DNA from: Prevotella sp. | GTDB lineage: Bacteria > Bacteroidota > Bacteroidia > Bacteroidales > Bacteroidaceae | NCBI GenBank assembly: GCA_017458225.1 | Contig: JAFTFX010000022.1 | Location: forward strand, 62,001 to 126,000 | Direction: 5' to 3' | Length of the DNA stretch: 64,000 nt | Shown: in pieces, positions 3,568-49,867 of the stretch | Position numbering within the stretch: position 1 is the first letter of the stretch | Layout: every line of letters begins with the position of its first letter | Notes under the pieces: generated by a model | What the model saw: only the letters and a program-made list of their open reading frames with translations | Told to the model about the DNA's origin: nothing | Databases searched by the model: none | Program-made: the position numbers and the translations under genes

Positions 3568-4173
3568 ATGAGAAAAACAAGTCTTTTTATTGCAGTCGTA
3601 TGCGGCTTGTCGCTACTGACGGCCTGCGGTGGTTCGTCAAGCAACAGAGTAGCGGGGAATGCTGCCACTACGTCCGTTTTGGCTGAAAACGCTGTGAAGG
3701 GTGAATTGGGTCTCTTCGAACTACAAGGTCCGGTGAAGAAATGTACCGTCATCAACGACTGGGGCAATGTGGAGCGCACCTTTGACGAGCAGGGATTCTG
3801 GCTGACCCACGGCGGCAAGCAGCTGAGCGAGATTTATTCCAGCGGTATTGAGCGCGACGAGTACGGTCGTATTGTAACGGGCAAAATCGACGATGAAGGC
3901 AATGGCGAAGACTACACTTACAGCAAGTTTGGCAAGGTGCTGAAATACAACTACCGTTTCTATGACAGCCTTGAAGAAGATGTTTATTCCTACGATGAGA
4001 ATGGAAACCTGCTGAAGAAGCATGTCGAATTGGGTGGCATGGATGCTGAAGAACCTTACGACGAGACCTATACCGATGTGGTTACTGATAGCTATGGTAA
4101 TTGGACCAGTCGCAAGGCTAATGGCGTGGTGCAGAAACGCCAAATAGAATACTATGATTTTGCGGTACAATAA
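3568..4173 (+). CDS. Small lipoprotein with RHS/YD-like repeats
   Basis: 201 residues. It starts with a type II signal peptide and lipobox LLTAC, followed by a serine-rich linker. The body has repeated beta-strand motifs of the RHS/YD type (DEYGRIVTGKIDDEGNG, YTYSKFGKVLKYNYRFY, YSYDENGNLLKKHVE, DSYGNWTSRK). It is probably anchored in the outer membrane or periplasm. No catalytic motif is visible and the function is unknown. It is a single-gene unit with its own promoter, convergent with the GH43 gene; its stop codon lies in the first unit of a 22-nt-period array. Confidence 0.8.
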   Translation: MRKTSLFIAVVCGLSLLTACGGSSSNRVAGNAATTSVLAENAVKGELGLFELQGPVKKCTVINDWGNVERTFDEQGFWLTHGGKQLSEIYSSGIERDEYGRIVTGKIDDEGNGEDYTYSKFGKVLKYNYRFYDSLEEDVYSYDENGNLLKKHVELGGMDAEEPYDETYTDVVTDSYGNWTSRKANGVVQKRQIEYYDFAVQ

Positions 4174-4312
4174 CCGTCATTTTGCGGTACAAAATCAGTC
4201 GTTTCGAGGTGCAAAACAACGCACTTTACAACTTTTGCTTACAAGCAAAAGACCTTCCGCTTGTAAGCAAAAGGTCTTTTGGTTATAAGCAGAAGGGTAT
4301 TCACTTGTAAGC
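4157..4312. repeat. Degenerate tandem array, 22-nt period (locus A)
   Basis: Seven units start at 4157, 4179, 4201, 4223, 4247, 4269 and 4291, so spacing is 22 nt except one of 24. Units 1-3 share TTTGCGGTACAA-like cores and units 4-7 end in ACAAGC, GTAAGC or ATAAGC. The stop codons of both convergent genes (4171-4173 and 4301-4303) lie in the array. Inverted pairs inside it (GCTTACAAGC 4237-4246 with GCTTGTAAGC 4259-4268; AAAAGACCTT 4247-4256 with AAGGTCTTTT 4271-4280) could act as a bidirectional terminator. Confidence 0.85.
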
Positions 4313-6235
4313 AAATCCCACACCTTCGGCTGTTGGTGGGATATTGCGGATGGTGCCGTCGGCATTGTAGTGCATCGGTTCGGCAACGACCGAGCGGCTG
4401 TAGCTGGTGCCGTCGGGCAGACCGCCGTTGTGGCTGAAGAAGAGCCACTGGCCCTTAAACTGCACGATGGCCGGATGCGTGGTGTTCGAGTTGCCTGCAA
4501 TCTCGCTGATGACACCCTTGGTCTCGTAGGGTCCCCAGATGTTGTCGGCTACGGCGTAGGCAATCTTCTCAGGCCACTCAGAGGCGTATGTTAGGTAGTA
4601 CTTTCCTTGATACTTATGCAGCCAGGGAGCCTCGGTGAAGGGGTGGTCTTCGCTGATGGCGATGCGCTTGATGGGACCGTCGAGCTCAATCATATTGTCC
4701 TTCAGTTTGGCCATGTAGCACTCGCGGTTGCCCCAGACGATATAGGGCGTGCCGTCGTCGTCGATGAGAATGGCCGGGTCGATGACGCACCAGCTGTGCT
4801 TCGAGTCGAAGCAATCCTCCTTGGTGAGCAATGGCTTTCCGAGGGCATCCTTATAGGGCCCCGTAATCTTGTCGCTTACGGCCACGCCGATGCCGCACCA
4901 GTTGGTCGACACGTACCAGTAGTAGCGTCCGTCTTTGCCCTTGGCCACATGTCCGGCGTAGGCCTGCTTGCTCTTAGCCCACTTGAAGTCGTCGATATGC
5001 AGGGGCGAGGGGTGCTCGGTCCAGTGCTTCATGTCGGTAGTGCTGTAGAGCAGCCAGTCGCGCATCACGTAGCCTTTCTGATTGCCTTCCATGTCGTGGC
5101 CGGCAAAGAGCCACAGCGTGTCGCCCTCCACGAAGACGGCAGGGTCGGCGGTGTGCTTGTCGCGAATAATGGGGTTGCCCTTCGACTCGAACTCATGCGT
5201 CAGCACCCATCCCCACTTTTGCTGAACGCGCTCCAGTTCGTCCTTGGTCACCGAGATGACGCTTCCGTGACGGGGGAAGAAGTTCTTGCGGAACGACAGC
5301 GGCTTCTCGCTGAAGTGAACGAGGTCTTTCGACAGCTGGTACTCATAGCGGCCACTGCCATAGAGGTCGTACATCAGAATCCAGTCGCCCGAGCCGTCGT
5401 GCAGGGGGAACACGCTCGAACCTTCCACATGCGTCCTGGTGCCGGCGTAGGCATCAAGATACTTGAAGTCTTCTTTCCACGGGCCCAGCAGCTTTTTCGA
5501 GGTGGCCTGCTCAATGCCGTTCTTCACTTCCTTGCCGTTCTCGTCTTTGGTGTTGCCCTTATAGAAATTGTGGTACACGCCATTCTTATAGATGATATCG
5601 TTGTCGATAGAGCCGTATTTGGCAGCGAAGAGCTGTTTCGGCTCGCTCTCAAAGGCAGTGAAATCCTTGTTGGCATAGGCGTAGTAGGTGATGAGGCTCT
5701 TGCGGCTGTCGCCTGTGCGCTGCAGTGTGAAGTAGATCATGTACTTCTTGGCTTTCTGGTCGTAGATGGTCTGCGGAGCCCATACCCAGTAGGCATCGCT
5801 GAAGGCCGGCCAGTCCTTTCCCAAGTTGATCTTGGCGTGAGTCCAGTTGACGAGGTCGCTCGACTTCATCAGCACGATGCCGGGGTTCTCGTTCCAACCC
5901 TGCTTCGGATCGAAGGTATGCATGTCGGTAGCCACGATGTAGTAGCAGCCGTCTTCGCCGCGCAAGATGTGCGGATCGCGAATACCGCCGCTCTCGCTGA
6001 TGCTGTCGCTGCCGATGATGGGTCGGTTGCCGTTCAGTGCATACCAGTTGCGGGCATCCTCGCTGACGGCAAAGCGCAGTTGCTCCTGAAGGTTCTTGTC
6101 ACCACCGCCCTCGAAATAGGCGAACAGATAGCCTGCAAACTGAGGCTGTTTCACGGTCTGCTTCTTGGCTTGTACTTGCAGGGACATTCCCAGTACAAGG
6201 GCAAGCAGCAAGTTCGTAATAATAGCTTTTTTCAT
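4301..6235 (-). CDS. Secreted two-domain glycoside hydrolase, GH43-type
   Basis: 644 residues with a signal peptide (MKKAIITNLLLALVLGMS, cleavage near QAKK). Two five-bladed propeller domains follow. The N-terminal one (about 30-330) has GGIRDPHILRGEDGCYYIVA and VEGSSVF. The C-terminal one (about 345-640) has a full GH43 set: TADPAVFVEG (base Asp), VIDPAILIDDDGTPYIVWG (pKa-modulating Asp) and FTEAPWLHK (acid Glu). GH43 enzymes remove arabinose, xylose or galactose from hemicellulose and pectin side chains; the exact substrate cannot be read from sequence. The lyase at 2936 suggests rhamnogalacturonan side chains. It lies between fusA and rpsJ with its own promoter. Confidence 0.85.
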   Translation of the reverse strand: MKKAIITNLLLALVLGMSLQVQAKKQTVKQPQFAGYLFAYFEGGGDKNLQEQLRFAVSEDARNWYALNGNRPIIGSDSISESGGIRDPHILRGEDGCYYIVATDMHTFDPKQGWNENPGIVLMKSSDLVNWTHAKINLGKDWPAFSDAYWVWAPQTIYDQKAKKYMIYFTLQRTGDSRKSLITYYAYANKDFTAFESEPKQLFAAKYGSIDNDIIYKNGVYHNFYKGNTKDENGKEVKNGIEQATSKKLLGPWKEDFKYLDAYAGTRTHVEGSSVFPLHDGSGDWILMYDLYGSGRYEYQLSKDLVHFSEKPLSFRKNFFPRHGSVISVTKDELERVQQKWGWVLTHEFESKGNPIIRDKHTADPAVFVEGDTLWLFAGHDMEGNQKGYVMRDWLLYSTTDMKHWTEHPSPLHIDDFKWAKSKQAYAGHVAKGKDGRYYWYVSTNWCGIGVAVSDKITGPYKDALGKPLLTKEDCFDSKHSWCVIDPAILIDDDGTPYIVWGNRECYMAKLKDNMIELDGPIKRIAISEDHPFTEAPWLHKYQGKYYLTYASEWPEKIAYAVADNIWGPYETKGVISEIAGNSNTTHPAIVQFKGQWLFFSHNGGLPDGTSYSRSVVAEPMHYNADGTIRNIPPTAEGVGFAYK

Positions 6236-6267
6236 TGTTGTTGGCAGTTGTTAGTAGAATGGTTGTG

Positions 6268-6298
6268 CAAAGTTACGAAAAGTCGAGAGAAGAACAAA
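6268..6298 (-). promoter_or_regulatory. Promoter of the GH43 gene
   Basis: TTTG (6295-6298), 19-nt spacer and TAACTTTG (6268-6275) on the minus strand, 33 nt upstream of the ATG. Confidence 0.7.
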
Positions 6299-6392
6299 AC
6301 AAACTCGTTTGTTTTTTCTTCCGAGACGGAGTAACTTCGCCAACTTGTTGGCAAAGTTTAGAAAAAAAACGAGATAATGGTATTGTGAGAAC

Positions 6393-6432
6393 AAAAAAAA
6401 TCCCGGAACCATTGCGATTCCGGGATTTTTTC
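6393..6432. terminator. Bidirectional hairpin terminator after fusA
   Basis: TCCCGGAA (6401-6408) pairs with TTCCGGGA (6418-6425) around a 9-nt loop, with an A-run on the left and a T-run on the right that extend the stem. It ends the rpsL-rpsG-fusA unit on the minus strand. Confidence 0.85.
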
Positions 6433-6437
6433 TTGAA

Positions 6438-6500
6438 TTCGATATTTCGATGTTTCGTTATTTCGATATTTCGAGATTCCGATGTTTCGAGATTTCGTCA
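6438..6500. repeat. Degenerate 8-nt tandem array after fusA
   Basis: About seven consecutive octamers of the form CGATATTT, CGATGTTT, CGTTATTT or CGAGATTT fill the gap between the terminator hairpin and the fusA stop codon. No coding sense is apparent. Confidence 0.75.
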
Positions 6501-6506
6501 AAATAT

Positions 6507-8633
6507 TTACACCAGGTCGGCACGGCCCTTCACTTCCTCGAGCACTGCCTTGGCGATAGCGCTGCTCAGTGCTGCGTGGTGGCTGTACTCCATAGAGCTG
6601 GTAGCACGGCCAGAGGTGATGGTGCGCAGAGCGGTTACATAGCCGAACATCTCTGACAGGGGCACCTTAGCCTTCACGACGCGGGCACCGCTGCGGCTCT
6701 CTTCCATGCCTTCCACCTGACCACGACGCTTGTTCAGGTCGCCGATCACGTCACCCATGTTCTCCTCGGGTGTCACCACCTCGAGCTTCATGATGGGCTC
6801 CATCAGCACGGGCTTAGCCTTGGCGCAAGCCTCCTTGTATGCCATCTGGGCTGCAATCTCGAACGACAGCTGGTCAGAGTCAACGGGGTGGAAGCCACCA
6901 TCGACCACCGTCACCTTCAGCGAATCCATAGGATAGCCACCGAGGATACCATTCTTCATGGCTGCCTCGAAGCCCTTCTGGATAGAGGGGATGAACTCCT
7001 TAGGAATGTTACCGCCCTTCACTTCGTTGACGAACTGCAGACCGCCGTTGGTCTTGATATCGTAATCCTCGTCGACAGGACCTACCTGAACGAGCATCTT
7101 AGCGTACTTACCGCGACCACCCGACTGCTTCTTGTAGGTCTCGTCGATCTCAACAGTCTTGGTGATGGCCTCCTTGTAGTTAACCTGAGGCTTACCCTGG
7201 TTGCACTCTACCTTGAACTCGCGCTTCAGACGGTCGATGATGATGTCGAGGTGCAGCTCACCCATACCCGAGATGATGGTCTGACCACTCTGCTCGTCGG
7301 TACGAACGGTGAACGTGGGGTCCTCTTCGGCCAGCTTAGCCAGACCGTTGTCCAGCTTGGCGATGTCGGCCTGGCTCTTCGGCTCAACGGCAATCGAGAT
7401 CACGGTGTCGGGGAAGGTCATTGACTCCAGCACGATGGGCTTCTCCTCGTCGCAGAGGGTGTCGCCGGTGCGGATGTCCTTGAAGCCTACGCCTGCGCCG
7501 ATGTCGCCAGCGTCGATAGAGTCCATAGGAATCTCCTTGTTTGAGTTCATCTGGAACAGACGACTGATGCGCTCCTTCTTGCCCGAACGGGGATTGAAGA
7601 CGTAAGAGCCAGCCTTCACGCTGCCTGAGTAGACGCGGAAGAACACCAGACGGCCCATGTAGGGATCGGTGGCAATCTTGAAAGCCAAGGCTGCGGTGGG
7701 CTCGTCCTCGCTGGGCTTGCGGTCTTCCTCTTCCTCAGTGCTGGGGTTGGTGCCCTTGATGACTTCAACATCGACAGGAGCAGGCAGGAAGGCGCAAACA
7801 TAGTCGAGCAGAGGCTGAACGCCCTTGTTCTTGTAAGAAGAGCCGCAGAGCATAGGCGTGCACTCCATGGCGCAGGTGCCCTTGCGGATGGCGGCGATGA
7901 TCTCGTCCTCGGTGATCGAGGCGGGGTCGTCGAAGAACTTCTCCATCAGAGCCTCGTCGTACTCAGCAGCGGCCTCGAGCAGCTTGTTGCGCCACTCGTC
8001 GCACTCGTCCTGCAGGTCGGCGGGGATGTCCTCGATGTCGTATTCAGCACCCATGGTCTCGTCGTGCCACAGGATGGCCTTCATCTTGATCAGGTCGACC
8101 AAACCCTTGAAGTTCTCCTCGGCACCGATGGGCACCTGGATCACAACGGGGTTGGCACCCAGGATATCCTTCATCTGCTGAACAGTCTCGAAGAAGTCGG
8201 CACCCGAACGGTCCATCTTGTTCACGTAGCCGATGCGAGGCACGTTGTACTTGTCGGCCTGGCGCCACACAGTCTCAGACTGGGGCTGAACGCCGTCGGC
8301 AGCCGAGTAGGTAGCCACGGCACCGTCGAGCACGCGCAGTGAGCGCTCCACCTCAGCGGTGAAGTCCACGTGTCCCGGAGTATCGATCAGGTTGATCTTG
8401 TACTTGTTCTTGTTCCACTCCCAATAGCAGGTGGTAGCTGCTGAGGTAATGGTGATACCGCGCTCCTGCTCCTGAGCCATCCAGTCCATGGTGGCTGCAC
8501 CGTCGTGCACCTCACCAATCTTGTGGGTCTTACCTGTGTAGAACAGGATACGCTCTGAAGTGGTGGTCTTACCAGCATCGATGTGGGCCATGATGCCGAT
8601 GTTGCGGGTCAAATGCAAATCTTGTTTTGCCAT
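6507..8633 (-). CDS. fusA: Translation elongation factor G
   Basis: 708 residues, usual EF-G length. The GTPase motifs are intact: G1 AHIDAGKTT near residue 20, G3 DTPGH, G4 NKMD; the switch I segment reads [11 protein letters not shown]. Domains II-V follow, including [14 protein letters not shown] and a C-terminal domain with [12 protein letters not shown]. It catalyses GTP-driven translocation of tRNA-mRNA on the ribosome. It is last in the rpsL-rpsG-fusA unit, 23 nt after rpsG. An acidic insertion (about residue 305, [14 protein letters not shown]) between the G domain and domain II is seen in other Bacteroidetes EF-G proteins. Confidence 0.98.
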
Positions 8634-8656
8634 TGTCTTTTTACCTTATTAATGAT

Positions 8657-9133
8657 TTAGAAACGGAAGTGAGCGAATGCACGGTTAGCCTCGGCCATGC
8701 GGTGCATGTCCTCCTTACGCTTGAAGGCACCACCCTGGTTGTTGAATGCGTCCATGATCTCGGCAGCCAGCTTGTCGGCCATCGACTTGCCACTGCGCTT
8801 GCGGGCAAAGGCAATCATGTTCTTCATTGACACACTCTCCTTGCGGTCGGGACGAATCTCGGTAGGAACCTGGAACGTAGCACCACCGATACGGCGGCTC
8901 TTCACCTCCACCTGGGGAGTGATGTTGTCCAGAGCCTGCTTCCAGATCTCCAGCGGAGCCTTCTCGGCATCCTTCATCTTGTCCTTCACAATCTCCAGCG
9001 AGTTGTAGAAGATTTCATACGACTTCGACTTCTTGCCGTCGAACATCAGGTGATTCACAAACTTTGAGACCTTCTGGTCGTTGAACACGGGATCGGGAAG
9101 GATCACACGCTTCTTTGGTTTTGCTTTTCTCAT
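8657..9133 (-). CDS. rpsG: 30S ribosomal protein S7
   Basis: 158 residues, full length ([38 protein letters not shown], ending NRAFAHFRF). S7 nucleates assembly of the 30S head and in proteobacteria represses its own operon. It is the second gene of rpsL-rpsG-fusA. The 161-nt gap to rpsL has no second gene; it holds a small GCCC/GGGC hairpin near 9190. Confidence 0.98.
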
Positions 9134-9294
9134 TTTTGTTTTTTGATGTTTAAAAATTCTGCTTGGGGCTGTTCTTTGTCTGCGTCTTCAACGCCCACTC
9201 TCGGGCATTTACTCAACCTTCTTTTTAAGAATTCTCCAGCAAAACGTTTGATTTCTTTTTTCTTCTTCAGGCTAAAGAGACCATCACCGGCCGC

Positions 9295-9675: not shown

Positions 9676-9767
9676 GATTTTAATTTTTTAGTTTTTTGTT
9701 TATTATATAATATTGTGTAAATCCAAATTCGGCATACCCCTGCCTAATACAGGGATATTTCGGGCTG

Positions 9768-9775: not shown

Positions 9776-9804
9776 CAAACTTTCTGTGAAACCACCTAAT
9801 ATAT

Positions 9805-9864: not shown

Positions 9865-9883
9865 TTAAACACGAAAATCGCGC

Positions 9884-10204: not shown

Positions 10205-10228
10205 TTGTTCTCTTGTTTTTTTACTCAG

Positions 10229-10260: not shown

Positions 10261-10309
10261 TATTTCTCCACCTTTTTTCGCAGCGAAAAATCTTTTTGCG
10301 TATTTTGCA

Positions 10310-10513
10310 TACACTGCTGTCACTAAACAGGTGCTGACACTAACGGCATTCTCTTCGCTCGTTAATATCTTGTTTCGCTGCAGTTAATACTGAATCTCGC
10401 TGTAGTTAATATCAAGTCTCGCTGCAATTAATATCAAACCTCGCTGTAGTCTGACGTTAATTGCAGCGAGATTCAGTATTAACTGCAGCGAGACTTGACG
10501 TTAGTCAGAGCGC
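10310..10513. repeat. Composite repeat element, 22-nt period with inverted half (locus B)
   Basis: The module TACACTGCTGTCACT (10310-10324) is followed by tandem units whose TCGCT cores start at 10355, 10375, 10397, 10419 and 10441 (spacing 20, 22, 22, 22). Three inverted units follow with AGCG cores at 10465, 10487 and 10509. The lattice continues at 22 nt through the inversion. Unit text is like CTCGCTGCAATTAATATCAA. The same module and unit family occur at 49578-49867. Non-coding; no stretch of non-repeated spacers, so it is not a CRISPR array. Confidence 0.85.
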
Positions 10514-10550
10514 AACTTGCCGTCCGTTGATGTCTCCCTCTTTAGCCCCA

Positions 10551-10617: not shown

Positions 10618-10656
10618 TTAGTCCTCGTCGTCCCAGAAGAAGTTGCCGTTATCATG
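10618..10656 (-). pseudogene. Relic 3' end of a small-peptide gene
   Basis: The last codons read HDNGNFFWDDED and a TAA stop. The DNA from this stop through the following hairpin closely matches the 3' end and downstream hairpin of the intact peptide gene at 11290-11463. The 5' part is missing and the truncated PIN gene runs into it, which points to a recombination joint near 10655. Confidence 0.7.
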
Positions 10657-10861
10657 TCTTTATAAATTCATCGAGAGTGACAAGATTGAGCTGTGGAAAC
10701 GGTGTTGCCCGTAATATGTTGAAATGATTATCCTCTGAAACCAAATAATCTGCGCCTGCTGCAAAGGCGCAATCTACAAACTTATTGTCGTCGGGGTCTG
10801 CACTAATAATGTTCATTCGGAAAAAGGGGTCTACAAGAGTCACTATAACAACAGGATGCAT
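10652..10861 (-). pseudogene. Truncated PIN-domain toxin
   Basis: 69 residues. The C-terminal half (ISADPDDNKFVDCAFAAGA, SEDNHFNILRATPFPQ) closely matches the 135-aa PIN toxin at 51590-51997. The first two PIN acidic positions (Asp in VLDTN, Glu in NEILAEYEE of the intact copy) are absent and only a short stretch (MHPVVIVTLVDPF) precedes the DPDD block. It begins 3 nt after the antitoxin stop, as expected for the original operon, so the deletion removed the start of the toxin. PIN proteins are Mg-dependent RNases; this copy is very probably inactive. Confidence 0.75.
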
Positions 10862-10864
10862 GGT

Positions 10865-11086
10865 CTATTTGTTATAAGGTGTACGAAAATGGGAACCACG
10901 AAGAGCCTGTAGTTTTTCTTCATTCCAATCGCCGTTCTCCCAAAGTTGGTCCATCTCGTCATCTATCTGCTTAGCATAGAATGCGGCCAGTTGTTTCCTC
11001 AGTTGTTCCAATCCTACTGCTGACTTGATGTGTGATACCAAGTTAAATACATGTACCTGTGCTGGACTAAAAGTGATTGCTTCCAT
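10865..11086 (-). CDS. Antitoxin-like partner of the truncated PIN gene
   Basis: 73 residues, paralogous to the 78-aa protein at 51997-52233: both begin MEA and share FxxxQxxxxxLVS, helical regions with LxQYFAK/LAAFYAK, a DxLW motif and an RTPY ending. By position (directly upstream of a PIN gene) it is the antitoxin, but it matches no antitoxin DNA-binding fold I can name. Its toxin is broken, so it may persist as an orphan or solitary antitoxin. It has a full promoter that duplicates the DUF3467 promoter. Confidence 0.7.
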   Translation of the reverse strand: MEAITFSPAQVHVFNLVSHIKSAVGLEQLRKQLAAFYAKQIDDEMDQLWENGDWNEEKLQALRGSHFRTPYNK

Positions 11087-11108
11087 AAATTATAAATCTT
11101 TAGTGTTG

Positions 11109-14400: not shown

Positions 14401-16033
14401 CTAAGTAATTGTCGGCAGCAGTTGCCACATCAAAATAGTACCACTGTCCGGCGACCATAGCTCCGCCATCAGGCAAAGCAAGTGCTTCACCGCCGACTGT
14501 GGGGCCGTAATAGAAAAGCTGGAAGTTGTCGAAGACAGTCCAAGCCCCAGCATTCTTCTCGCGGAAACCAACGGTAAGATTACCGTCAGTGACGTTAACA
14601 TCTGTATAGATGCGTCCCCATGTTGCATCATTGAACATATTCACGACCTGATCTTTGGCAGCATTGCTTGTTACTGTCTGTGTGACGGTTGCCGTGGATT
14701 CGCCAAGAGCAGTCGTTGCATAAAGTTCCTGCTGGTTCTGATCGCGCCATGCGGCTTGAACGTAAACGCGATACAGTCCATTAGGCATGTTAGTGAGACT
14801 CTGCGAGAACTCTCCTTGACCATGGTAGATTTCATAGCCTCGATCTTCATTTTTATCTGCTGTGATACGGTTTAAGTTGCCAGTGCCAGGATTGGCATAA
14901 GTCCAGTTCTCGTTGCTGATGGCAGCATTCAGGTTGGCGTTCTTCAGCAGGCCGGTGAGATTGGCTGGTGAGGAAGAAGATACCGTGTTGCCGAGATAAG
15001 CGAGCGTTACATTGTCGAAATTAGACCAAAGGTGCTCAGCCGTTGCAGCACCACTGATAGTTATTGTCAATGTCCCATCTGTTACCTTAGCCACAACGTC
15101 ATTATAGCGCCATCCTTGATAAGTGCCGTCTCCGCCAATTGTCGTGACGGATCCGTCTGCCTTGATATTTCCATTGGCATCACCGTTGACCATGAAATAA
15201 CTTTCGTATCCGTTGGCTATAAGTTTCTGCCAAATTTTGTCAGGAGAATTCGCAATCTGAGCAGCAACCTTTACGCGATAGTAACCATTAGGCAGGTTGC
15301 TGATAGTCTGGCTGTATGTCTGGTTCCATGATGCTGCTCCCCAATTGCTTGGCTCAAAGAAACCTGCGTTTCCGTCAAACCCGTTTTTCGCGTTGCGAGA
15401 AACTGTGCCACTGGCTGCAGTCCAACCAGAGCCATCAGATGCAGCATTAGGGTTGGCAATATGTGCGGTCATGTCAATAGACCCATTTGCAGCGATGTAA
15501 GCATCCAGATAGGTCCTATAATCAGACTCGGTGACAAATTGCCAAATAGTCAACGCTTCATCAAGGCCAGCCTGTTCGTTAGAGTTAGCAGCAATGCGAT
15601 TGGCATTTGATGTGTTGATGTATACGTAGGCATTGTCTGTACCGTTCCAGGCATAACTGTGAATCTTATACTTACTGTCTGTACCAGTGGCTACAAGCTG
15701 CATATTCACCTCGCCTGCATAGCTCTGACCAACAAAACTTGAACTTACTTCTGCCCAATACTTGCCCCAGAAGTAACCTGTGGCATTGTTTTGCATGCGC
15801 AACTTCACGTAGCCTTCTACGTCAGAAGTTTCGATCGTCCATGCACAACCAGCAGGCTTTACATAGGGGACAGAACCACCGTCGGTGGTAAGGAATAACT
15901 GCGTGGAAGGGTTATAAAGATAATAAGTTTCTCCTGTGGATGGTTCAGAAGCCGTTGGTTGGCCCCACGCCAAATTGCCCCCCCCAGTAAGCATAGTGAG
16001 GGCTGTTAATAAAAATAATTTTAGTTTTCTCAT
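11486..16033 (-). CDS. Giant secreted multidomain protein (1515 aa)
   Basis: Signal peptide 1-24 (ending NLAWG), then a beta-trefoil-like segment (TYYLYNPSTQLFLTTDGG), several galactose-binding/CBM-like jelly-roll modules (LPNGYYRVKVAAQ near 250, MPNGLYRVYVQAAW near 420, LTPGLYRLSVKALERITWYG near 925), a further module (TYKLAFKYAGW) and a C-terminal region ending VYNLQGQRVE then KGLFIKNGKKVVIK. The ending resembles T9SS-type sorting or surface domains common in Prevotella. No catalytic domain is evident, so it is probably a surface adhesin or glycan-binding protein. The protein is similar in plan to the 1416-aa neighbour. No TAnnTTTG box was found directly upstream; a hairpin separates it from the preceding unit. 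Confidence 0.8.
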   Translation of the reverse strand: MRKLKLFLLTALTMLTGGGNLAWGQPTASEPSTGETYYLYNPSTQLFLTTDGGSVPYVKPAGCAWTIETSDVEGYVKLRMQNNATGYFWGKYWAEVSSSFVGQSYAGEVNMQLVATGTDSKYKIHSYAWNGTDNAYVYINTSNANRIAANSNEQAGLDEALTIWQFVTESDYRTYLDAYIAANGSIDMTAHIANPNAASDGSGWTAASGTVSRNAKNGFDGNAGFFEPSNWGAASWNQTYSQTISNLPNGYYRVKVAAQIANSPDKIWQKLIANGYESYFMVNGDANGNIKADGSVTTIGGDGTYQGWRYNDVVAKVTDGTLTITISGAATAEHLWSNFDNVTLAYLGNTVSSSSPANLTGLLKNANLNAAISNENWTYANPGTGNLNRITADKNEDRGYEIYHGQGEFSQSLTNMPNGLYRVYVQAAWRDQNQQELYATTALGESTATVTQTVTSNAAKDQVVNMFNDATWGRIYTDVNVTDGNLTVGFREKNAGAWTVFDNFQLFYYGPTVGGEALALPDGGAMVAGQWYYFDVATAADNYLATATTLTNIVYTTNPDILIENESTVTAHFTAEDNSLSATRYYVKSSSSNNLEISVAAHTYVVGSASANVAYIQEGNTVTVSYPDATTTDTSASLTTDFSGVTFGGNSISVTPTANGFTFTVPTVTAATDYTLAIPAGAIGYSEGSTYNEAQNIVLKTPAIFDGYYFLRTSGYKYLSRGGNYNTQAIADDYGVPMRVTTNANNITEFIFIDNWFHLFDGDGGTLFTDNNTYPNFEVEATDGGYYVINRNTTASSSYGGKMYIDTADGNRVKSSTTNSTVWQFEDATTTAHKLQMQALKDAQAAAVATSAGISASTQAAMASELSANYGETDIAITGTGGTNSQSWKQGGGKERDSGPLEIFKETVSGLTPGLYRLSVKALERITWYGDVANVGGAAGLTYVYANDQKVQLYSLFDYPADASLASGDVEINGKYYPDTQSSAQAYFDAGKYSNDVYVYVTADEGETTGSITFGINKPHRYGNDGDRGAWICYNDFSLVRFDAKPTDAEKEALADAIDAAEAKTLGFENKEYAPYNNVDAIVALAAAKAIVPETASGAAVVAATTALTTATSAMVANDGEVNAIYWDYSTLATTDKSKAYGWYDPALSGNAEGSMYATRVFNHVNGIKGDGTDSNPGLAAVNHNVALFTKISTNYGKVEGYTLPLKANRTYKLAFKYAGWTEPSESTISITDENGENPLAISGVVTVSGTAQNGNSSTKAWANYEGYFAVPADGNYILNINRINMGGHVQRQLVMGNIDLRTASALEFADGTVPTYAPGTYPTVKITRSLTADRWATAVYPFAVSGVDNIAVLDSYNKETGALGFTSAAASVANEPFLMRSTSDKTEITLSNVGVSATAASPAITKSEASLKGAYTTTDITNAEKNYVLSSNKIYSVGTAGATINPYRAYIQIDQTVNARALSFFIDGDETTGIEGINAETKAIEGTVYNLQGQRVEKAQKGLFIKNGKKVVIK

Positions 16034-25311: not shown

Positions 25312-25363
25312 TTGCTTTCGCTCTACATTAATTAACAGAATAATATGCCTGCGATGAAAATAA

Positions 25364-25420
25364 ATTTATGCATAAATTGGGCGGATTTATGCATAAATTG
25401 AACGAATTTACGCATAAATT
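25364..25420. repeat. Tandem array, 21-nt period (locus D)
   Basis: Three copies of ATTTATGCATAAATT (third with one change) start at 25364, 25385 and 25406. Each core is an internal palindrome. The array ends at the stop codon of the YqaA-like gene (25420-25422). Confidence 0.85.
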
Positions 25421-25872
25421 CAAAGCAGAAGACCTGCGCCGTAGATGAGAATCAAGTAGCGCAACAACTTGCCGAGAGTGATACTGATCAGCGAAATGAC
25501 GATGTTTGCACGCATCAGTCCCAACAGAATGGTGATGGCCGACCCCAGCACGGGCAGGAAGGCAAAGAAGCCCATCCACGCACCGCGTCCGGCCATGAAG
25601 CGCTCGGCCTTGTCGAGATCCTGCTTTTTGACGTGCAGGTATTTCTCAATCCACTCCAACCGGCCCATGCGGCCCACGCCGTAGTTGAAGCAGCTGCCAA
25701 GCACGTTGCCGATGGTGCCGTAGACCATGAGCTGCCAGGGGTCGAGACCTGTGGCCATCAAGCCTACCATGACGGCCTCGCTGCTGAAAGGGAAGAAACT
25801 GCCAGCCAGAAAGGCTGCCAGCAGCATGCCGATATAGCCGTAGCCTGTCAGAAGATCGATGAACCACTCCAT
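25420..25872 (-). CDS. YqaA/DedA-like membrane protein (SNARE-associated/VTT domain)
   Basis: 150 residues with four or five hydrophobic segments. Motifs: FLAGSFFPFSSEAVMVGL, GNVLGSCFNYGVGRMGR, GRGAWMGFFAFLPVLGSAI, the latter resembling the re-entrant loop of DedA/VTT proteins. DedA relatives act as lipid flippases or scramblases and affect membrane homeostasis; the role of the short YqaA branch is not settled. The start overlaps the previous gene by 25 nt, so translation is probably coupled. Confidence 0.8.
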   Translation of the reverse strand: MEWFIDLLTGYGYIGMLLAAFLAGSFFPFSSEAVMVGLMATGLDPWQLMVYGTIGNVLGSCFNYGVGRMGRLEWIEKYLHVKKQDLDKAERFMAGRGAWMGFFAFLPVLGSAITILLGLMRANIVISLISITLGKLLRYLILIYGAGLLL

Positions 25873-44156: not shown

Positions 44157-44503
44157 TGTATATAGTCTAACTGCTTCTTGAGTGCCTGCAGGTCGTCGCG
44201 CACACCAATCAGCCGCGTCAGCACGTCGGCCCGGCGGTCGGCACCATCGCGGTTGGCATTGATCATTTTCTTGGCGGCAGCCAGCTTAAAGCCGCGCACT
44301 TTCACCAAGTTGTGAATCAGTTTGATCTGCTCAATGTCTTTCTCCGTATATTGGCGTACCTTGCTGGGGCCGGCAGTCTTAGGCTTCAGGTAGGGAAACT
44401 CGGTTTCCCAGTAGCGAAGCGTACTTTCGTTCAGGTCAAACATCTCAGCCACCTCCTTGATGGAGTAGTAGAGTTTCAAGTTCTTGTTCAGATTCAGTGC
44501 CAT
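44153..44503 (-). CDS. MerR-family transcriptional regulator
   Basis: 116 residues from ATG 44503 (MALNLNKNLKLYYSI); the earlier in-frame ATG at 44524 lies in the -7 box. Winged HTH: YYSIKEVAEMFDLNESTLRYWE, then PKTAGPSKVRQYTEKDIEQI. No cysteine-rich metal site at the short C-terminus, so it is not a metal sensor; coiled helix ends KKQLDYIQ. A very similar small MerR protein is common across Bacteroidetes. It leads the unit with the secreted hydrolase. Confidence 0.9.
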   Translation of the reverse strand: MALNLNKNLKLYYSIKEVAEMFDLNESTLRYWETEFPYLKPKTAGPSKVRQYTEKDIEQIKLIHNLVKVRGFKLAAAKKMINANRDGADRRADVLTRLIGVRDDLQALKKQLDYIQ

Positions 44504-44521
44504 ATCCGTATTGTTTGATGG

Positions 44522-44529
44522 CAAAATTA
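44522..44529 (-). promoter_or_regulatory. -7 box of the merR unit
   Basis: TAATTTTG on the minus strand, 18 nt from the chosen ATG. Confidence 0.6.
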
Positions 44530-44615
44530 CGAAAAAAAAGCTAATCCAATAGTTATTGACTGTTAATTTAATGTTAAATTCGCAAAGTACTCATTGTCGT
44601 ATGCTGGATAATACA

Positions 44616-44623
44616 TATCTTTG
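44616..44623 (+). promoter_or_regulatory. -7 box of the SPFH unit
   Basis: TATCTTTG, 31 nt before ATG 44655. The rest of the 44530-44615 gap shows nothing else. Confidence 0.65.
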
Positions 44624-44654
44624 CGATATCAAAATGATATTATTTTATTTTTAA

Positions 44655-45641
44655 ATGCTTATGAATATGGAAACAAATGAGAAGAGATTTGACGGTAGCG
44701 TTTGGAATGGATTCCTGATGCTGTTTGTGTGTATGATTCTGACGGTGGTCAGCCTTGCAGGGACCATCTGGGGTATCGTTGTTCTTTCCGACGAGGCTGG
44801 CAGCACCGCACTGGGCTCGTCGTTGCTCTGTGGGGGCTTGGTGCTGCTTGTAGTGACCATTATCATGTGGTGCGGCTTTATGATGTTGGAACCCAATGAG
44901 GCCCGTGTCATCAACTGGTTCGGCAAGTATGCCGGCACCTTCACCGAGACGGGCTACTACTGGATCAACCCTTTCTACTCGCTGAAGACGGTGTCGCTGC
45001 GTGCACGCAACCTGGATGCCGAGCCTATCAAGGTGAACGACAAGGTGGGCAATCCGGTGATGATCGGTCTTGTGCTGGTATGGAAACTGAAGGACACCTA
45101 TAAGGCTATCTTCGAGGTTGACTCGCAGACGATGGCAACCACGGCGCAGGGCCAGATAGGCACTGACGTAAAGAGTCTGATGAAGGCACTGGAGAACTTC
45201 GTCAAGGTGCAGAGCGATGCCGCCCTTCGTCAGGTGGCAGGTCAGTATGCCTACGACGATACCGACGAGAAGACCAACGAGCTGACCCTTCGTGATGGCG
45301 GCGACGAAATCAACCAGCAACTGGAGGCCAAGTTGACCGAACGTCTGGCGATGGCCGGCATCGAGGTGGTTGAGGCTCGCATCAACTATCTGGCATACGC
45401 TCCTGAGATTGCCGCTGTGATGTTGCGTCGCCAGCAGGCATCGGCCATCATCACTGCACGCGAGAAGATTGTGGAGGGTGCCGTGTCGATGGTGAAGATG
45501 GCTCTCGACAAGCTCTCCAACGAGAATATCGTCGAACTCGATGACGACAAGAAGGCTGCCATGGTGAGCAACTTGCTCGTGGTGCTCTGCGGCGACGACT
45601 CGGCACAGCCTGTTGTGAATACTGGAACCCTGAACCATTGA
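44655..45641 (+). CDS. SPFH/Band 7 membrane protein
   Basis: 328 residues. Two N-terminal membrane helices (about 20-45 and 55-78), then the SPFH domain (PNEARVINWFGKYAGTF, LKTVSLRARNLDAEPIKVND) and a helical region with GIEVVEARINYLAYAPEIAAVMLRRQQA. SPFH proteins form membrane microdomain scaffolds or large cages. ATGs at 44655, 44661 and 44667 are all possible. It heads a three-gene unit with the Arc-like and DUF1648-type proteins, spaced 4 nt and overlapped by 23 nt. Confidence 0.9.
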   Translation: MLMNMETNEKRFDGSVWNGFLMLFVCMILTVVSLAGTIWGIVVLSDEAGSTALGSSLLCGGLVLLVVTIIMWCGFMMLEPNEARVINWFGKYAGTFTETGYYWINPFYSLKTVSLRARNLDAEPIKVNDKVGNPVMIGLVLVWKLKDTYKAIFEVDSQTMATTAQGQIGTDVKSLMKALENFVKVQSDAALRQVAGQYAYDDTDEKTNELTLRDGGDEINQQLEAKLTERLAMAGIEVVEARINYLAYAPEIAAVMLRRQQASAIITAREKIVEGAVSMVKMALDKLSNENIVELDDDKKAAMVSNLLVVLCGDDSAQPVVNTGTLNH

Positions 45642-45645
45642 TAAT

Positions 45646-45834
45646 ATGACAAAACCGACGAAGAATTTCATCCTGCGCATGGATGCCGACATGATGAATG
45701 CCATTGAAGCCTGGGCCGCTGATGAGTTCCGCTCAACCAACGGCCAGCTGCAATGGATCATCACCGAGGCCCTGCGCAAGGCTCATCGTCTGCCCAAAAA
45801 GAAACTGAACAATGAAAAACTTGATGAAAAATAG
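45646..45834 (+). CDS. Arc-family small DNA-binding-like protein
   Basis: 62 residues matching the ribbon-helix-helix Arc layout: strand FILRMDADMMNAIEAWA, then helix RSTNGQLQWIITEALRKAHR and a basic tail. RHH dimers bind operators, but placement between two membrane proteins suggests it is a partner of the SPFH protein; this SPFH-Arc pairing is seen in many Bacteroidetes, mechanism unknown. Four bases after the SPFH stop. Confidence 0.75.
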   Translation: MTKPTKNFILRMDADMMNAIEAWAADEFRSTNGQLQWIITEALRKAHRLPKKKLNNEKLDEK

Positions 45835-46282
45835 ACAAGGACGAACGCTGGAAGGCACCGTCTTTGAAGTGGCCTTTCTGGTGCTGGCTGCACTTGTGTG
45901 GGGGCTCATCGCATGGCTCTATGTGCGTGCACCAGAGTCTGTACCTACCCATTTCAATGCTTTGGGCAATCCTGATGCATGGGGCCATCCGTCTAACATG
46001 CTGGCCGTCTGCGGACTGATGACGATTCTCGGCTTCCTCATGCTCCTTGGTGCCTATTTCCCCAGCACTATCAGCATGCCTTTCGAGATTCGTACTCCGC
46101 GGCAGACAGCCCTCGGGCAGCGCCTGCTGCGCATCACGGCCTTGTTGTTCCTCTTGCTGACGATAGCCATCGCTTTCGGAGCCATGAAGCCTCCCTACAC
46201 CCTGTGGCCCCTTTTCGTGGTTACCGGTGTAATCATCATTGTCGTTCTGGTGTTCGCGGTACTGATGTGGAAGGCTCGCTGA
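45812..46282 (+). CDS. DUF1648-type membrane protein
   Basis: 156 residues, four hydrophobic segments. The motif PTHFNALGNPDAWGHPSNML near residue 45 is typical of DUF1648 (SdpI-related). Function unknown; SdpI is an immunity protein, but most homologues are not. Its start overlaps the Arc-like gene by 23 nt. An internal second Met (residue 5) is an alternative start. Confidence 0.8.
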   Translation: MKNLMKNRQGRTLEGTVFEVAFLVLAALVWGLIAWLYVRAPESVPTHFNALGNPDAWGHPSNMLAVCGLMTILGFLMLLGAYFPSTISMPFEIRTPRQTALGQRLLRITALLFLLLTIAIAFGAMKPPYTLWPLFVVTGVIIIVVLVFAVLMWKAR

Positions 46283-46348
46283 CGGTCCTCAGTTGTCATT
46301 TGACGCAAATTACACCCTGTTTTTTTGTTGAATTCAGAAAATAATGTG

Positions 46349-46356
46349 TACCTTTG
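46349..46356 (+). promoter_or_regulatory. -7 box of alaS
   Basis: TACCTTTG, 43 nt upstream of the alaS ATG. Confidence 0.65.
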
Positions 46357-46399
46357 CGGCCAAATTATAAATAATAAATAGTCAAATTGTAAATTAAGA

Positions 46400-49099
46400 A
46401 TGATGACTGCAAAAGAAATCCGCGACTCCTACAAGAAGTTTTTCGAGTCGAAAGGACACGCCATTGTGCCTTCTGCACCGATGGTTATCAAGGATGACCC
46501 TACGTTGATGTTCACCAACGCCGGCATGAACCAGTGGAAAGACATTATCCTCGGCACACGCGACCCTGAGCCGCGCCGCCGTGCTGACACTCAGAAGTGC
46601 CTGCGCGTTAGCGGTAAGCACAACGACCTGGAAGAGGTAGGCCACGACACCTATCACCACACCATGTTCGAAATGCTGGGCAACTGGTCGTTTGGCGACT
46701 ACTTCAAGGAGGGTGCTATTGATATGGCCTGGGAATATCTGGTCGACGTGCTGAAACTGAATCCTGAAGATCTCTATGTCACCGTCTTCGAGGGCGACCC
46801 CAAAGAGGGACTGGAGCGCGACGATGAGGCTGCTGGCTACTGGCTGAAGCATGTGCCTGCCGACCATATCATCAACGGTAATAAACACGACAACTTCTGG
46901 GAAATGGGCGACACGGGTCCTTGCGGCCCCTGTTCAGAGATTCATGTGGACTCTCGCACACCTGAGCAGAAGGCTGCCAGCGGCAAGAGCGGTCGTGAGC
47001 TGGTGAATCAGGACGACCCGCAGGTCATCGAGATATGGAACCTCGTGTTCATGCAGTATAACCGCAAGGCCGACGGCTCGTTGGAGAAACTCTCTATGAA
47101 CGTCATTGATACGGGCATGGGCTTCGAGCGTCTGGTCCGCATGATGCAGGGCAAGCACTCCAACTACGACACCGACGTGTTCCAGCCCATCATCAAGGCT
47201 GAACAGCAGATAACAGGTCTGAAGTACTACACCTTCGAGGAAGAGGCTAGTCTGGCTAATTCAACTAGTACGACTAATGCAACGAGTTCTTCTCAAGAGC
47301 AGATCAACGTTGCCATGCGCGTCTGCGCCGACCACCTGCGTGCTGTGGCCTTCTCGATTGCCGATGGCCAGCTGCCCTCGAATGCAAAGGCCGGCTACGT
47401 CATCCGTCGCATTCTGCGCCGTGCCGTGCGCTATGCCTATACGTTCCTGGGTCAGAAAGAGGCGTTCCTCTATAAACTGCTGCCCACGCTCGTTGAGGAG
47501 ATGGGCGATGCTTTCCCTGAACTGAAGGCTCAGCAGCAGCTCATCGCGAAGGTGATGAAGGAAGAGGAAGACTCGTTCCTGCGCACCCTTGACAAGGGCA
47601 TCCAGTTGCTCGACAAGGCGATGGAACAGCTGCGTCAGGAGAAGAAGACCGAGCTCGACGGTGTACAGGCTTTCCGCATGTTCGACACTTTCGGATTCCC
47701 CCTCGACCTCACTGAGCTAATCTGCCGCGAAAACGGTTTTACGGTCGACGAAAAGCAGTTTGCCGAGGAGATGCAGAAGCAAAAGGACCGCGCCCGCAAT
47801 GCCGCTTCTGTTGAGAACAGCGATTGGGTCATCGTGTCCGGTGCTTCTCCGTCGGAAGAACAGCAGTTCGTGGGCTACGACTACACCGAATATGAATGCC
47901 GCATTCTGCGCTACCGCAAGGTTACTCAGAAGAAGAGCGAGTTCTACGAGCTGGTTCTCTCGGCCACTCCTTTCTATGGCGAGATGGGCGGACAGGTAGG
48001 CGACTGCGGTGTGCTTGTCAGCGAGAACGAGACCGTTGAGGTCATTGATGCCAAGCGCGAAAACAACCAGACTGTCCACATTGTGAAGCAGCTGCCTAAG
48101 GATCCTGCTGCTCCCTTCATGGCTTGCGTCGACACCGACAAACGCAAGGCCAGCGCTGCCAACCATACGGCTACCCACCTGCTCGACTATGCATTAAAGC
48201 AGGTGCTGGGCGACCATGTGGAGCAGAAAGGCTCGTTCGTCAGCCCCGACACACTGCGTTTCGACTTCTCGCATTTCGAGAAGGTCAGCGACGAGCAGTT
48301 GCGCCAGGTGGAGCGCATCGTCAACGATATGATTCGTCAGGACCTGCCGCTCGACGAGCATCGCGACACCCCGTTCGAGGAAGCTAAGAAGATGGGGGCC
48401 ATCGCCCTCTTCGGCGAGAAATATGGCGATAAGGTGCGTGTGGTTCGCTTCGGTCCTTCCTGCGAGTTCTGCGGCGGTATCCATGCCAAGAGCACTGGTC
48501 GCATCGGCATGTTCAAGATTGTATCAGAGAGTTCGGTGGCTGCCGGCATCCGTCGTATCGAAGCCAAGACTGGCAAGGAGTGCGAGGAACTGCTCTATAA
48601 CCTGGAGGACACGCTGAGAGCAGTGAAGTCGTTCTTCAACAATGCCAAGGACCTGCAGGGTGTCATCCGTAAGTATATTGACGAGCACGACTCGATGAAG
48701 AAGGAGATAGAGTCGTTTCAGGCACAGGCCGTGGAGCGTGCTGCCAAGCAGTTGGTGGAGAAAGCCCGTGTGGTGGGCGGTGTGAAGGTCATCACCACCG
48801 TGTTGCCCATGGAGCCGGCCGCTGCCAAGGATCTGGCCTTCAAGGTGCGTGCTGCTGTCGATGGCTCGTTGCTCTGTGTTCTAGGCACCAAGCATCAGGA
48901 CAAGCCCCAGCTCACCATCATGCTGAGCGACGACCTCGTGGCCAGCCACGGTCTGAATGCCGGTCAGATGGTGCGCGAAGCCGCCAAACTCATTCAGGGT
49001 GGCGGCGGTGGTCAGCCTCACTTCGCTCAGGCCGGCGGCAAGAGCGTTGATGGACTGAGTGCCGCAGTCGACAAAGTGGTTGAGCTGGCCAAGCTATAG
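46400..49099 (+). CDS. alaS: Alanyl-tRNA synthetase
   Basis: 899 residues, full length. Class II catalytic core ([28 protein letters not shown]), tRNA-recognition domain ([14 protein letters not shown]), editing domain with HTATHLL and CEFCGGIH (zinc-binding Cys/His) and C-Ala domain with [14 protein letters not shown]. Charges tRNA-Ala. Near residues 283-300 a polar insert ([16 protein letters not shown]) is coded by degenerate 9-nt repeats and lies before [18 protein letters not shown] start: 46403 is an alternative. Confidence 0.97.
47249..47300. repeat. In-frame 9-nt degenerate repeat within alaS
   Basis: Nonamers CTAGTCTGG, CTAATTCAA, CTAGTACGA, CTAATGCAA and CGAGTTCTT in a row, coding a Ser/Thr/Asn linker. 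Base use is AT-richer than the flanking coding sequence. Confidence 0.75.
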
Positions 49100-49366
49100 A
49101 TTGGTCATCCTGCGTAGATAAGCTTCTATCAGCTGGAGGTTGATAGTTTCAATGGCGGTGAGTTTAGCTGACTTGCCGCCATTTCTTGTGTACAGCTCTT
49201 CGCGCATCTGCTGGAGCGTCTCTGCAGGCAGACGGCGCAGAGCCTCCTTCTCAAGAGAGTTGTCAGGAGAGCGCCTGCTTTATACCTCGCCGGAGTCGGC
49301 CACATAAACACTCATGGGCAAAAGGACGCTTAGTAGTGGAATAATGATACGGATGAATGTTGTCAT
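49094..49366 (-). pseudogene. Broken gene for a small exported protein
   Basis: ATG 49366 starts a signal-like peptide (MTTFIRIIIPLLSVLLPMSV) that meets TAA at 49280-49282. In the same frame the sequence then reads on with coding-like codon use (EKEALRRLPAETLQQMREEL, KLTAIETINLQLIEAYLRRM) to a TAG at 49094, overlapping the alaS 3' end. One nonsense change thus seems to have split an 81-codon downstream-facing gene. No family recognised. Confidence 0.6.
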
Positions 49367-49369
49367 TTC

Positions 49370-49535
49370 TTACTGGATGATTTTTTCTTGGTTGTGCTTG
49401 GAGAGCATGTCGGCATTGGGGAATAGGTGCTCTGTAGCCCTCAGCACTCCCTTCACCGACTCGAAGATGACGCTCTGATACTTCATTCCGTTGGCATGAC
49501 GGGCAACGATGTTCAGTCCAAATGCCCTGAAAGTT
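49370..49535 (-). pseudogene. Remnant 3' end of an unknown gene
   Basis: In frame up to TAA 49370-49372: RAFGLNIVARHANGMKYQ, SVIFESVKGVLRATEHLF, NADMLSKHNQEKIIQ. Codon third positions are GC-rich as in real genes here, but there is no start codon: TGA lies just upstream. It ends 3 nt before the next remnant's ATG, so both are what is left of an operon. Family not recognised. Confidence 0.55.
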
Positions 49536-49577
49536 CAACTTTTTGATGTGGAAGTGATGATAATTTTTTTTGGCTTT

Positions 49578-49666
49578 TTTGCCTACACTGCTGTCACTCC
49601 GCTTGCATCGTGCTGATATTCAGATTATCAGGCTGTTACGGTCGGAGTGACAGCAGTGTAGGCAAA
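49578..49666. repeat. Perfect 24-nt inverted repeat
   Basis: Arms 49578-49601 and 49643-49666 match over 24 nt and contain TACACTGCTGTCACT, the same module seen at 10310-10324. Loop of 41 nt. It forms the left part of the composite element whose array begins at 49711. Confidence 0.9.
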
Positions 49667-49710
49667 TTTGCGAAAAATAAAAATCAACGATAATGTGGTT
49701 GATTCTGTAA

Positions 49711-49867
49711 CGAGCGTCAAGTTCCGCTGCAATGAACGTCAAGTCTCGCTGCAATTAACGTCAAGTCTCGCTGCAACTAACGTCAGATTACAGCGAGGTT
49801 TGATATTAATTGCAGTAGAATTCAATATTAATTGCAGCAGAATTCAATATTAATTTCAGCAGAATTC
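49711..49867. repeat. Tandem array, exact 22-nt period, inverted half (locus C)
   Basis: CGCTG cores at 49725, 49747 and 49769, then inverted cores CAGCG/CAGTA/CAGCA at 49791, 49813, 49835 and 49857: every step is 22 nt, including across the inversion. Unit sequence belongs to the same family as locus B (CTCGCTGCAATTAA). It ends 16 nt after (minus strand) the hipT stop codon. No function known. Confidence 0.9.

Follow-up and report, generated by a model that had tools for sequence, protein, structure and literature searches.

Intergenic 21–22-nucleotide lattice arrays in a Prevotella genome as candidate iteron-like sites of VapE/BT4734 mobile elements

The four arrays of the window

The intergenic DNA of a Prevotella species (Prevotella sp., assembly GCA_017458225.1) carries tandem arrays whose short units recur every 21 or 22 nucleotides (nt), and the nature of these arrays is the subject of this report. 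They came to attention in a stretch of 64,000 nt, positions 62,001–126,000 of contig JAFTFX010000022.1 (C3), hereafter the window, where an earlier note made from the sequence alone had pointed to tandem units of such a period at four places. A lag scan of the window bears this out, with arrays at 4145–4320 (lag 22), 10353–10460 (lag 22), 25353–25435 (lag 21), and 49696–49889 (lag 22), which are numbered 1 to 4 below.

Array 1 (family D, 4145–4313) was delimited by the lag scan, by eye, and by the occurrence of the same composite at two further loci (L037 and L050); read by eye, it consists of about four GGTACAA-type units followed by about four of the CTTTTGCTTACAAGCAAAAG palindrome type, all on a 22-nt lattice. 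Array 2 (family A, 10353–10514) presents forward units at 10374, 10396, and 10418 and inverted units at 10449, 10471, and 10493, likewise on a 22-nt lattice, and is accompanied by a 21-mer, TTTGCATACACTGCTGTCACT, on the plus strand at 10304–10324 (C3:72304–72324), which belongs to the border motif described below. Array 3 (family B, 25363–25420) is composed of three 16-nt palindromic cores (25363–25378, 25384–25399, and 25405–25420) separated by two 5-nt spacers, giving a period of 21. Array 4 (family A, 49696–49870) has scored forward units at 49723, 49745, and 49767 on a 22-nt lattice; its inverted units, from about 49785 to 49867, were read by eye because only the forward units pass the score cut. 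Beside it lies an inverted pair of the border 21-mer, the left arm (TTTGCCTACACTGCTGTCACT) on the plus strand at 49578–49598 (C3:111578–111598) and the right arm on the minus strand at 49646–49666 (C3:111646–111666). The description of two arrays as forward and then inverted units on one lattice thus holds, for array 2 by score and for array 4 by eye. The unit sequences had been said to differ between loci; this is not so for arrays 2 and 4, which are members of one dispersed family, and the constancy of the period stands.

The placement of all four arrays directly at the 3′ ends of genes was also only partly upheld. Arrays 1, 3, and 4 have a stop codon inside the array or within about 16 nt of it, array 1 sitting between convergent genes whose 3′ ends lie at 4173 and 4301. 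Array 2 is found about 150–190 nt upstream of a start codon and 776–830 nt from the nearest called 3′ end. A frame for a PIN-like protein, seen by eye on the minus strand at about 10655–11100 and absent from the gene calls, may end nearer to array 2, at about 10655.

Abundance and genomic context

The arrays are real and extend far beyond the window. This genome was scanned at any lag from 8 to 60 over 464,000 and then 863,701 bases, which amounts to 39% read of a genome that is 74.7% complete; arrays were called at 30 of 44 identities in this genome and its relatives, and at 28 of 44 in the analyses of VapE loci and their controls. Gene calls were our own, made from open reading frames (ORFs) and codon scores, with longest-ORF calls used in the first lag scan, the scans of relatives, and the VapE-locus analysis. 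In the 265 intergenic regions of the 863,701 bases, 44 arrays were found at lags 21–23 (7, 36, and 1, respectively), against 0.05 per set in dinucleotide-shuffled intergenic sequence (20 sets, maximum 1), and the possibility raised at the outset that the period is merely that of shuffled intergenic DNA falls away. The neighboring lags 17–20 and 24–27 together yielded four arrays, lag 44 yielded two, and any other lag at most four; a 50-kb stretch of Escherichia coli contained no array at lag 21–23.

Arrays are present in 10 of the 29 intergenic regions that separate convergent genes, in 24 of the 177 that separate co-directional genes, and in 9 of the 59 that separate divergent genes, with a bias that varies by family. 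Among 22 family A elements, 6 lie between convergent, 12 between co-directional, and 2 between divergent genes, with 2 at an edge; the corresponding numbers for the 15 family C elements are 1, 7, 5, and 2, and for 12 family B elements, one of them from the related genome G244, they are 1, 8, and 3 with none at an edge. None of the 49 examined elements of families A, B, and C (48 from this genome and 1 from G244) is contained in a called gene.

Unit families and lattice architecture

At least five unit families coexist in this genome. The family A unit, CTCGCTGYARTTAAYRTCAAGT, which builds window arrays 2 and 4, has 70 matches genome-wide as opposed to 1 for a reversed-pattern control. The family B unit, AATTTATGCATAAATT followed by 5 variable bases, builds window array 3 and forms 32 tandem core pairs genome-wide, and the family C unit, ACAAACTCGTCGACTTTGT followed by 3 variable bases, occurs at 15 places. 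The composite family D is present at 3 places in 864 kb, including window array 1, and family E at 2.

Across these families the spacing is rigid and the sequence drifts, and conserved cores alternate with variable spacers of fixed length. In the 20 family A elements having at least two units that score 16 of 22, same-orientation units, found without reference to a lattice, are 22, 44, or 66 nt apart in all 33 pairs, and the forward arm precedes the inverted arm, with a junction of 9 modulo 22, in each of the 15 elements where both arms score. The core spacing is 21 in all 23 cases in family B, among them those of one G244 element; in family C it is 22 in 11 of 12 cases in this genome (the remaining one being 83) and in 12 of 12 in G244. 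The earlier proposal that the period is the conserved feature is therefore well founded. A family in a genome of another genus, G065, behaves alike, all 43 of its core spacings being multiples of 22; in a further genome, G084, two short 8-mer half-sites gave a noisy spacing histogram.

The number of cores is equally constrained. All 12 family B elements (11 from this genome, 1 from G244) contain three, as do all 15 family C places here and all 7 in G244, and one family C element in another genome (G245) has four. No solitary near-perfect core exists in the 864 kb: a lattice neighbor is present for 16 of 16 in family B and 27 of 27 in family C. Within the 36 cores of family B, 10 of 16 columns are invariant and the spacers vary, and in the 22 elements of family C the first core is invariant at 18 of 19 columns, with weaker, inward-reading flanks of about 45 nt (44 flanks). 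On wedge-model values, predicted curvature is strong in family B (93 versus 30 degrees in shuffles, for 12 elements including window 25363–25420), weak in family A and the G065 family, and absent in family C; bending is thus not common to all arrays.

Distribution and turnover among relatives

The unit sequences are nearly private to the species, and the period is common to its relatives. At up to 2 mismatches, family A is dense only in this genome; of 59 others in the genus, 10 have 1–2 scattered matches. Family B was found in 0 of 100 other genomes of the taxonomic family, and family C was absent both from 60 others in the phylum and from 59 relatives. A scan of a larger collection recovered exact family C pairs in two other Prevotella metagenome-assembled genomes (MAGs; 8 loci), one of which, G244, also carries one family B element. 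Arrays of the same period and other sequences were nonetheless to be expected in relatives if the earlier note was right, and such intergenic arrays at lags 21–23 are present in 7 of 7 sampled genomes of the taxonomic family (100 kb each; four of the genus and three of other genera), in which 15 arrays at 21–23 were counted, along with 2 at lag 44 and 12 spread over the remaining lags. Eight genomes from farther off in the phylum, 587 kb in all, yielded 2 at 21–23.

In G065 (3.7 Mb, 99% complete), AAACAATATTGTTT forms 204 tandem pairs separated by 8-nt spacers when up to 3 mismatches are allowed, and controls gave 0. Among 26 of its elements that were read, the number of units is 3 in one, 4 in 17, and 5 in 8, and the 13 elements with the best-matching flanks share outer parts that extend over more than 100 nt on the left. 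On contig C1 of G065 the exact tandem pairs are unevenly distributed, and the segment from 1.82 to 2.92 Mb has just 1 of the 35 places.

Comparison of orthologous sites reveals both constraint and turnover. A family C element upstream of an HU-HIG gene, in this genome and in G244, has retained 57 of 57 core bases and changed 5 of 6 spacer bases. At two other orthologous sites (L153/L183 and L155/L043), G244 has an element where this genome has a short intergenic region.

A bordered element with a VapE gene

A 21-mer, TTTGCMTACACTGCTGTCACT, borders many family A arrays. With at most 1 mismatch allowed, it matches this genome 32 times and is missing from 59 others in the genus; with up to 3 mismatches, its 16-mer core is present within 260 nt of 19 of the 28 family A arrays. 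In two of these (L176 and L183) it stands on both sides, in ten on a single side and oriented like a terminal inverted repeat (TIR), in six as an inverted pair on one side, and in one (L178) in the other orientation. Inverted pairs about 67–68 nt apart constitute small hairpin units beside family A or A-like arrays, at window 49578–49666 and at L034, L040, L042, L183, L188, and L191.

One element on the contig of the window, outside the window itself, unites border, array, and gene. At C3:15541–17155 (L031; 1.6 kb), inverted 21-mers with 1 mismatch each enclose a family A array (15701–15896) and a frame of 422 amino acids that starts at 15921, 25 nt past the array. Its protein contains a VapE-like PF05272 domain (3.8e-32) and DUF3874 (2.2e-16) and is devoid of a primase domain. 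With borders, array, and gene it is a candidate for the autonomous partner expected of a miniature inverted-repeat transposable element (MITE); the gene is no known transposase, and mobility of the element is putative.

VapE/BT4734 genes and upstream arrays in other records

Part of the text of PMC5862659 describes the VirE (PF05272) ATPase as a predicted helicase in the replication of mobile elements and BT4734 as a family of archaeo-eukaryotic primases, and part of PMC2880560 lists the BT4734 (VirE N-terminal) family as over-represented in human gut genomes. A tblastn search recovered relatives in 71 plasmid and 504 phage records; a scan of viral contigs for the VapE protein recovered none. 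We analyzed 26 loci (H1–H18, H21–H26, H28, and H29) of 40 places listed, which take in the Bacteroidales records among them and most of the gut scaffolds.

An array at lag 21–23 lies within 900 nt upstream of VapE in 14 of the 26 loci and within 900 nt downstream in 0 of 26. It ends anywhere from 23 nt inside the called VapE frame to 615 nt before it, mostly 8–280 nt before. Other lags occur upstream in two loci (42 in L263 and 20 in L267), and L246 has a 44-lag array upstream. The frequency exceeds that in controls from the seven relatives, which are other species than those of the VapE records: an upstream array is found for 18 of 412 genes (p = 3e-11), for 12 of the 125 whose upstream region measures 200 nt or more (p = 1.6e-6), and for 10 of the 68 where it measures 400 nt or more (p = 3e-4). 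Inside the 26 loci, 11 of 78 other genes have an array, some of them in the same region as the VapE array; when intergenic regions of at least 200 nt are compared instead, 12 of 19 directly upstream of VapE bear one versus 1 of 17 elsewhere (p = 4e-4), and the one elsewhere, in L269, is itself among the 14 VapE-linked arrays. Shuffled VapE loci contained 0 arrays in each of 10 sets.

The linked arrays are themselves diverse, the 14 falling into 10 sequence families by shared 9-mers. Four of five array-linked proteins tested combine BT4734-like_N, VapE, and DUF3874 domains, and one is without the primase domain. Arrays of this kind also recur elsewhere within a species. DNA similar to the Parabacteroides distasonis array L249 is found at 16 places, spread over 8 records that all belong to P. 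distasonis; for the Bacteroides finegoldii arrays L247 and L250 there are 4 places in 3 and 2 places in 2 records of B. finegoldii, respectively (the array itself included in each count). Three copies that were read (L272, L273, and L274) are intergenic, with lags of 22 or 44 and no annotated VapE gene within 1.5 kb. Neither the VapE/BT4734 link nor the dispersal of the arrays as elements was noticed in the earlier note.

A gene for an HU-family DNA-binding protein is annotated near VapE/BT4734 in 5 of 9 annotated loci (L246, L247, L250, L257, and L267), and in the present genome a family C element adjoins an HU-HIG gene (L087).

Alternative explanations

Tandem layout brings to mind plain minisatellites generated by replication slippage. 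In the 23 two-armed family A elements, unit identity is 0.635 between same-arm neighbors, 0.559 between non-neighbors, 0.617 between mirror partners, and 0.592 between elements. When positions are matched, neighbors at 0.635 are slightly closer than units of other elements at 0.601 (p = 0.0016), and mirror partners show no excess (0.620 versus 0.640). The small position-matched excess of neighbors indicates, therefore, that some unit exchange occurs. Plain slippage nevertheless fails, because units are barely more alike within arrays (0.56–0.64) than between them (0.59); the constant three cores of families B (12 of 12) and C (15 of 15 in this genome), the variable spacers set between invariant cores, and the inverted arms on the lattice tell against it as well, and we regard it as scarcely credible. 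A constraint on RNA structure, whether as bidirectional terminators or as stabilizing 3′ hairpins at gene ends, can call on the strong predicted folding of the window arrays (z of −6.1, −11.0, −3.8, and −6.9, and −6.7 for the other strand of array 4) and on the enrichment of family A in convergent settings (6 of the 20 elements whose context is known). Yet the arms of an element do not pair better with each other than with those of other elements on average: in family A (n = 14), own arms give −69.2 and swapped arms −68.9 kcal/mol (p = 0.45), and in family C (n = 22, all oriented alike) −42.0 and −41.3 kcal/mol (p = 0.19). Single elements differ, array 2 faring far better with its own arm and others far worse. 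That own arms pair no better than swapped ones argues against a selected RNA hairpin, as do the unmatched dyads common in family B (5 T/T, 3 A/A, 7 T/G, and 4 C/A cells, at 36 per pair) and the frequent location of families B and C between divergent genes. A terminator scan of arrays 1, 2, and 4 produced one hit, at array 1, and none at the other two, against 0.4–0.5 in shuffles, and Rfam at gathering score produced 0 hits in the window. Core positions 6 and 9 of the G065 family change together (27 C-G beside 77 A-T among 109 listed cells), a covariation that fits pairing and equally fits one unit type inherited at fixed positions. Palindromic candidate RNAs, many of them predicted terminators, are described for Bacteroidetes in part of PMC8040213. 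An RNA function is, on this evidence, improbable. Of the structural view taken in the earlier note, the insufficiency of slippage survives and the RNA constraint is not supported.

The arrays might instead be phased tandem operators for regulatory or nucleoid proteins of the host, selected in place, with VapE genes merely drawing on one to control themselves. Core conservation at the orthologous site upstream of the HU-HIG gene in two species would be expected of such operators, a gene start adjoins 12 of 13 family C elements of known context (by eye, often that of a core gene), and the curvature predicted for family B is strong. Against this, units B and C are absent from the 100, 60, and 59 other genomes, with A at background level in 59; this absence has its limit in the two Prevotella MAGs that have C, one of them also B. 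The presence and absence of elements at orthologous sites and the inverted repeats at their borders likewise count against it, and host operators appear to us unlikely, though the most serious of these alternatives. Dispersal by a known agent is conceivable. Repetitive extragenic palindromic (REP) sequences and the bacterial interspersed mosaic elements (BIMEs) that they form are many-copy intergenic mosaics of palindromes, associated with a REP-associated tyrosine transposase (RAYT) of the Y1 type, and they share with the arrays their short intergenic palindromes, high copy number, several families per genome, and near species-specificity. The arrays differ in their rigid 21–22 lattice, and no Y1 transposase is present in the four array-bearing genomes tested at 99% completeness (G061, G063, G065, and G084), for which this explanation was rejected. 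A Y1_Tnp domain has one hit in the present genome and two in G244, none with a 21–23 array beside it. Spread by RAYT is, overall, very improbable.

A proposed mechanism

We give slightly better than even credence to the reading that the arrays are iteron-like recognition arrays of VapE/BT4734 mobile elements, together with gene-less, MITE-like derivatives of these elements. A full element would comprise a lattice of short dyad sites, 21–22 base pairs (bp) or two helical turns apart, placed ahead of the gene that encodes a VapE-type AAA+ protein, which would often be fused to a BT4734-type primase domain; the window arrays would be gene-less, MITE-like copies. The protein that the element encodes most likely occupies adjacent dyads along a single face of the DNA, in the manner of an initiator on iterons. 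Binding to one face would account for the rigid spacing, conserved cores, free spacers, and lineage-specific sequence, and if each protein lineage has its own core, unit sequences would differ by family and species while the period stays. The binding of the protein to the array, copying driven by this binding, and the manner of insertion are inferred. In its broadest form, the proposal is that Bacteroidales harbor transposase-less mobile elements that spread by means of a VapE/BT4734 primase-helicase of their own, which works on dyads arranged like iterons in a lattice, that lineage-specific cores co-evolve with this protein, and that gene-less copies amplified in trans fill intergenic DNA across the order; this we consider possible, at somewhat less than even likelihood.

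Several observations weigh against such a role. The border motif is missing from 9 of the 28 family A arrays, and in the bordered element the right 21-mer falls within the last codons of the VapE gene. No other likely gene lies inside that element, and no target-site duplication was recognized by eye at border motifs, at the bordered element, or at gene-less copies. Only one VapE gene was found in the DNA read from this genome, and none in the stretches read from relatives, so that families B to E are without a known partner so far. Of the 124 genes in this genome whose upstream region measures 200 nt or more, moreover, 38 are preceded by an array, a baseline against which 14 of 26 reaches p = 0.04, and because arrays are so dense here, the genome's own VapE gene alone proves little. 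Elsewhere, 12 of the 26 VapE loci are without a 21–23 array at the cut used (L246 with its 44-lag and L267 with its 20-lag array among them, and L259 and L270 with almost no upstream DNA), and when the cut is tightened to 30, an array in the 2 kb upstream of the match survives in 11 of 26. Downstream arrays exist in L252 (44-lag) and, more than 1 kb from VapE, in L251 and L255 (22- and 23-lag). Fourteen of the 26 loci come from just three isolates (5 from B. finegoldii, 7 from Phocaeicola massiliensis, and 2 from P. distasonis), on contigs labeled plasmids. Lastly, family C is often found beside gene starts, as operators would be.

Relation to known systems

Iteron origins of plasmids have short repeats, spaced at about two turns of the helix, next to their initiator gene, with a sequence specific to the replicon. 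The arrays may be likened to them in this spacing and in the initiator-like gene nearby, an arrangement found in 14 of the 26 VapE loci and in the element of this genome, with the other 12 loci lacking it. Unlike iteron origins, the arrays have many chromosomal copies without a gene, and any origin activity is putative. The mobile-element genes treated in PMC5862659 have the same domains as the gene of the bordered element (VapE) and the array-linked genes. The word "iteron" occurs 0 times in the main text of that paper, and the parts of it consulted mention no 22-bp array; in our case the gene is alone with the array, and no integrase was seen.

In the titles and abstract openings of the open-licence literature, no description of 21–22-nt lattice arrays in Prevotella or Bacteroides was found, and the nearest relative there is the BrickBuilt MITE of Porphyromonas gingivalis. 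As portrayed in part of PMC4596501, BrickBuilt is likewise intergenic and dispersed, with tandem units (of 23 nt) that have a more variable half, and is likewise restricted to close species and flanked by border inverted repeats. According to the same portion of the source, it differs in its leader and tail, its 1 to 22.8 units, and its IS5-type TIRs. The present arrays have periods of 21–22, and their border 21-mer differs by eye from the table of TIRs in that paper; they are further set apart by the fixed number of cores in families B and C, by units that are dyads separated by spacers, by the presence of several families in one genome, and by the linkage to VapE. The same paper also mentions 22-nt repeats in P. 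gingivalis.

Separately from the arrays, the window contains a coding repeat at 54566–54791, with periods of 15, 30, 60, and 90 nt in a minus-strand frame that appears by eye to be Gly/Asp-rich.

Biological implications

If the proposal is true, the VapE/BT4734 gene family would gain a DNA site on which to act. A candidate site that lies beside the gene and is repeated elsewhere in the same species makes the role of BT4734 in Bacteroidales directly testable. The proposal would, furthermore, account for a large part of the repeats in the intergenic DNA of these bacteria, and for the change of repeat sequence from species to species at a constant period. In work on how genes are regulated in Prevotella and Bacteroides, such arrays would then have to be treated as possible mobile DNA.

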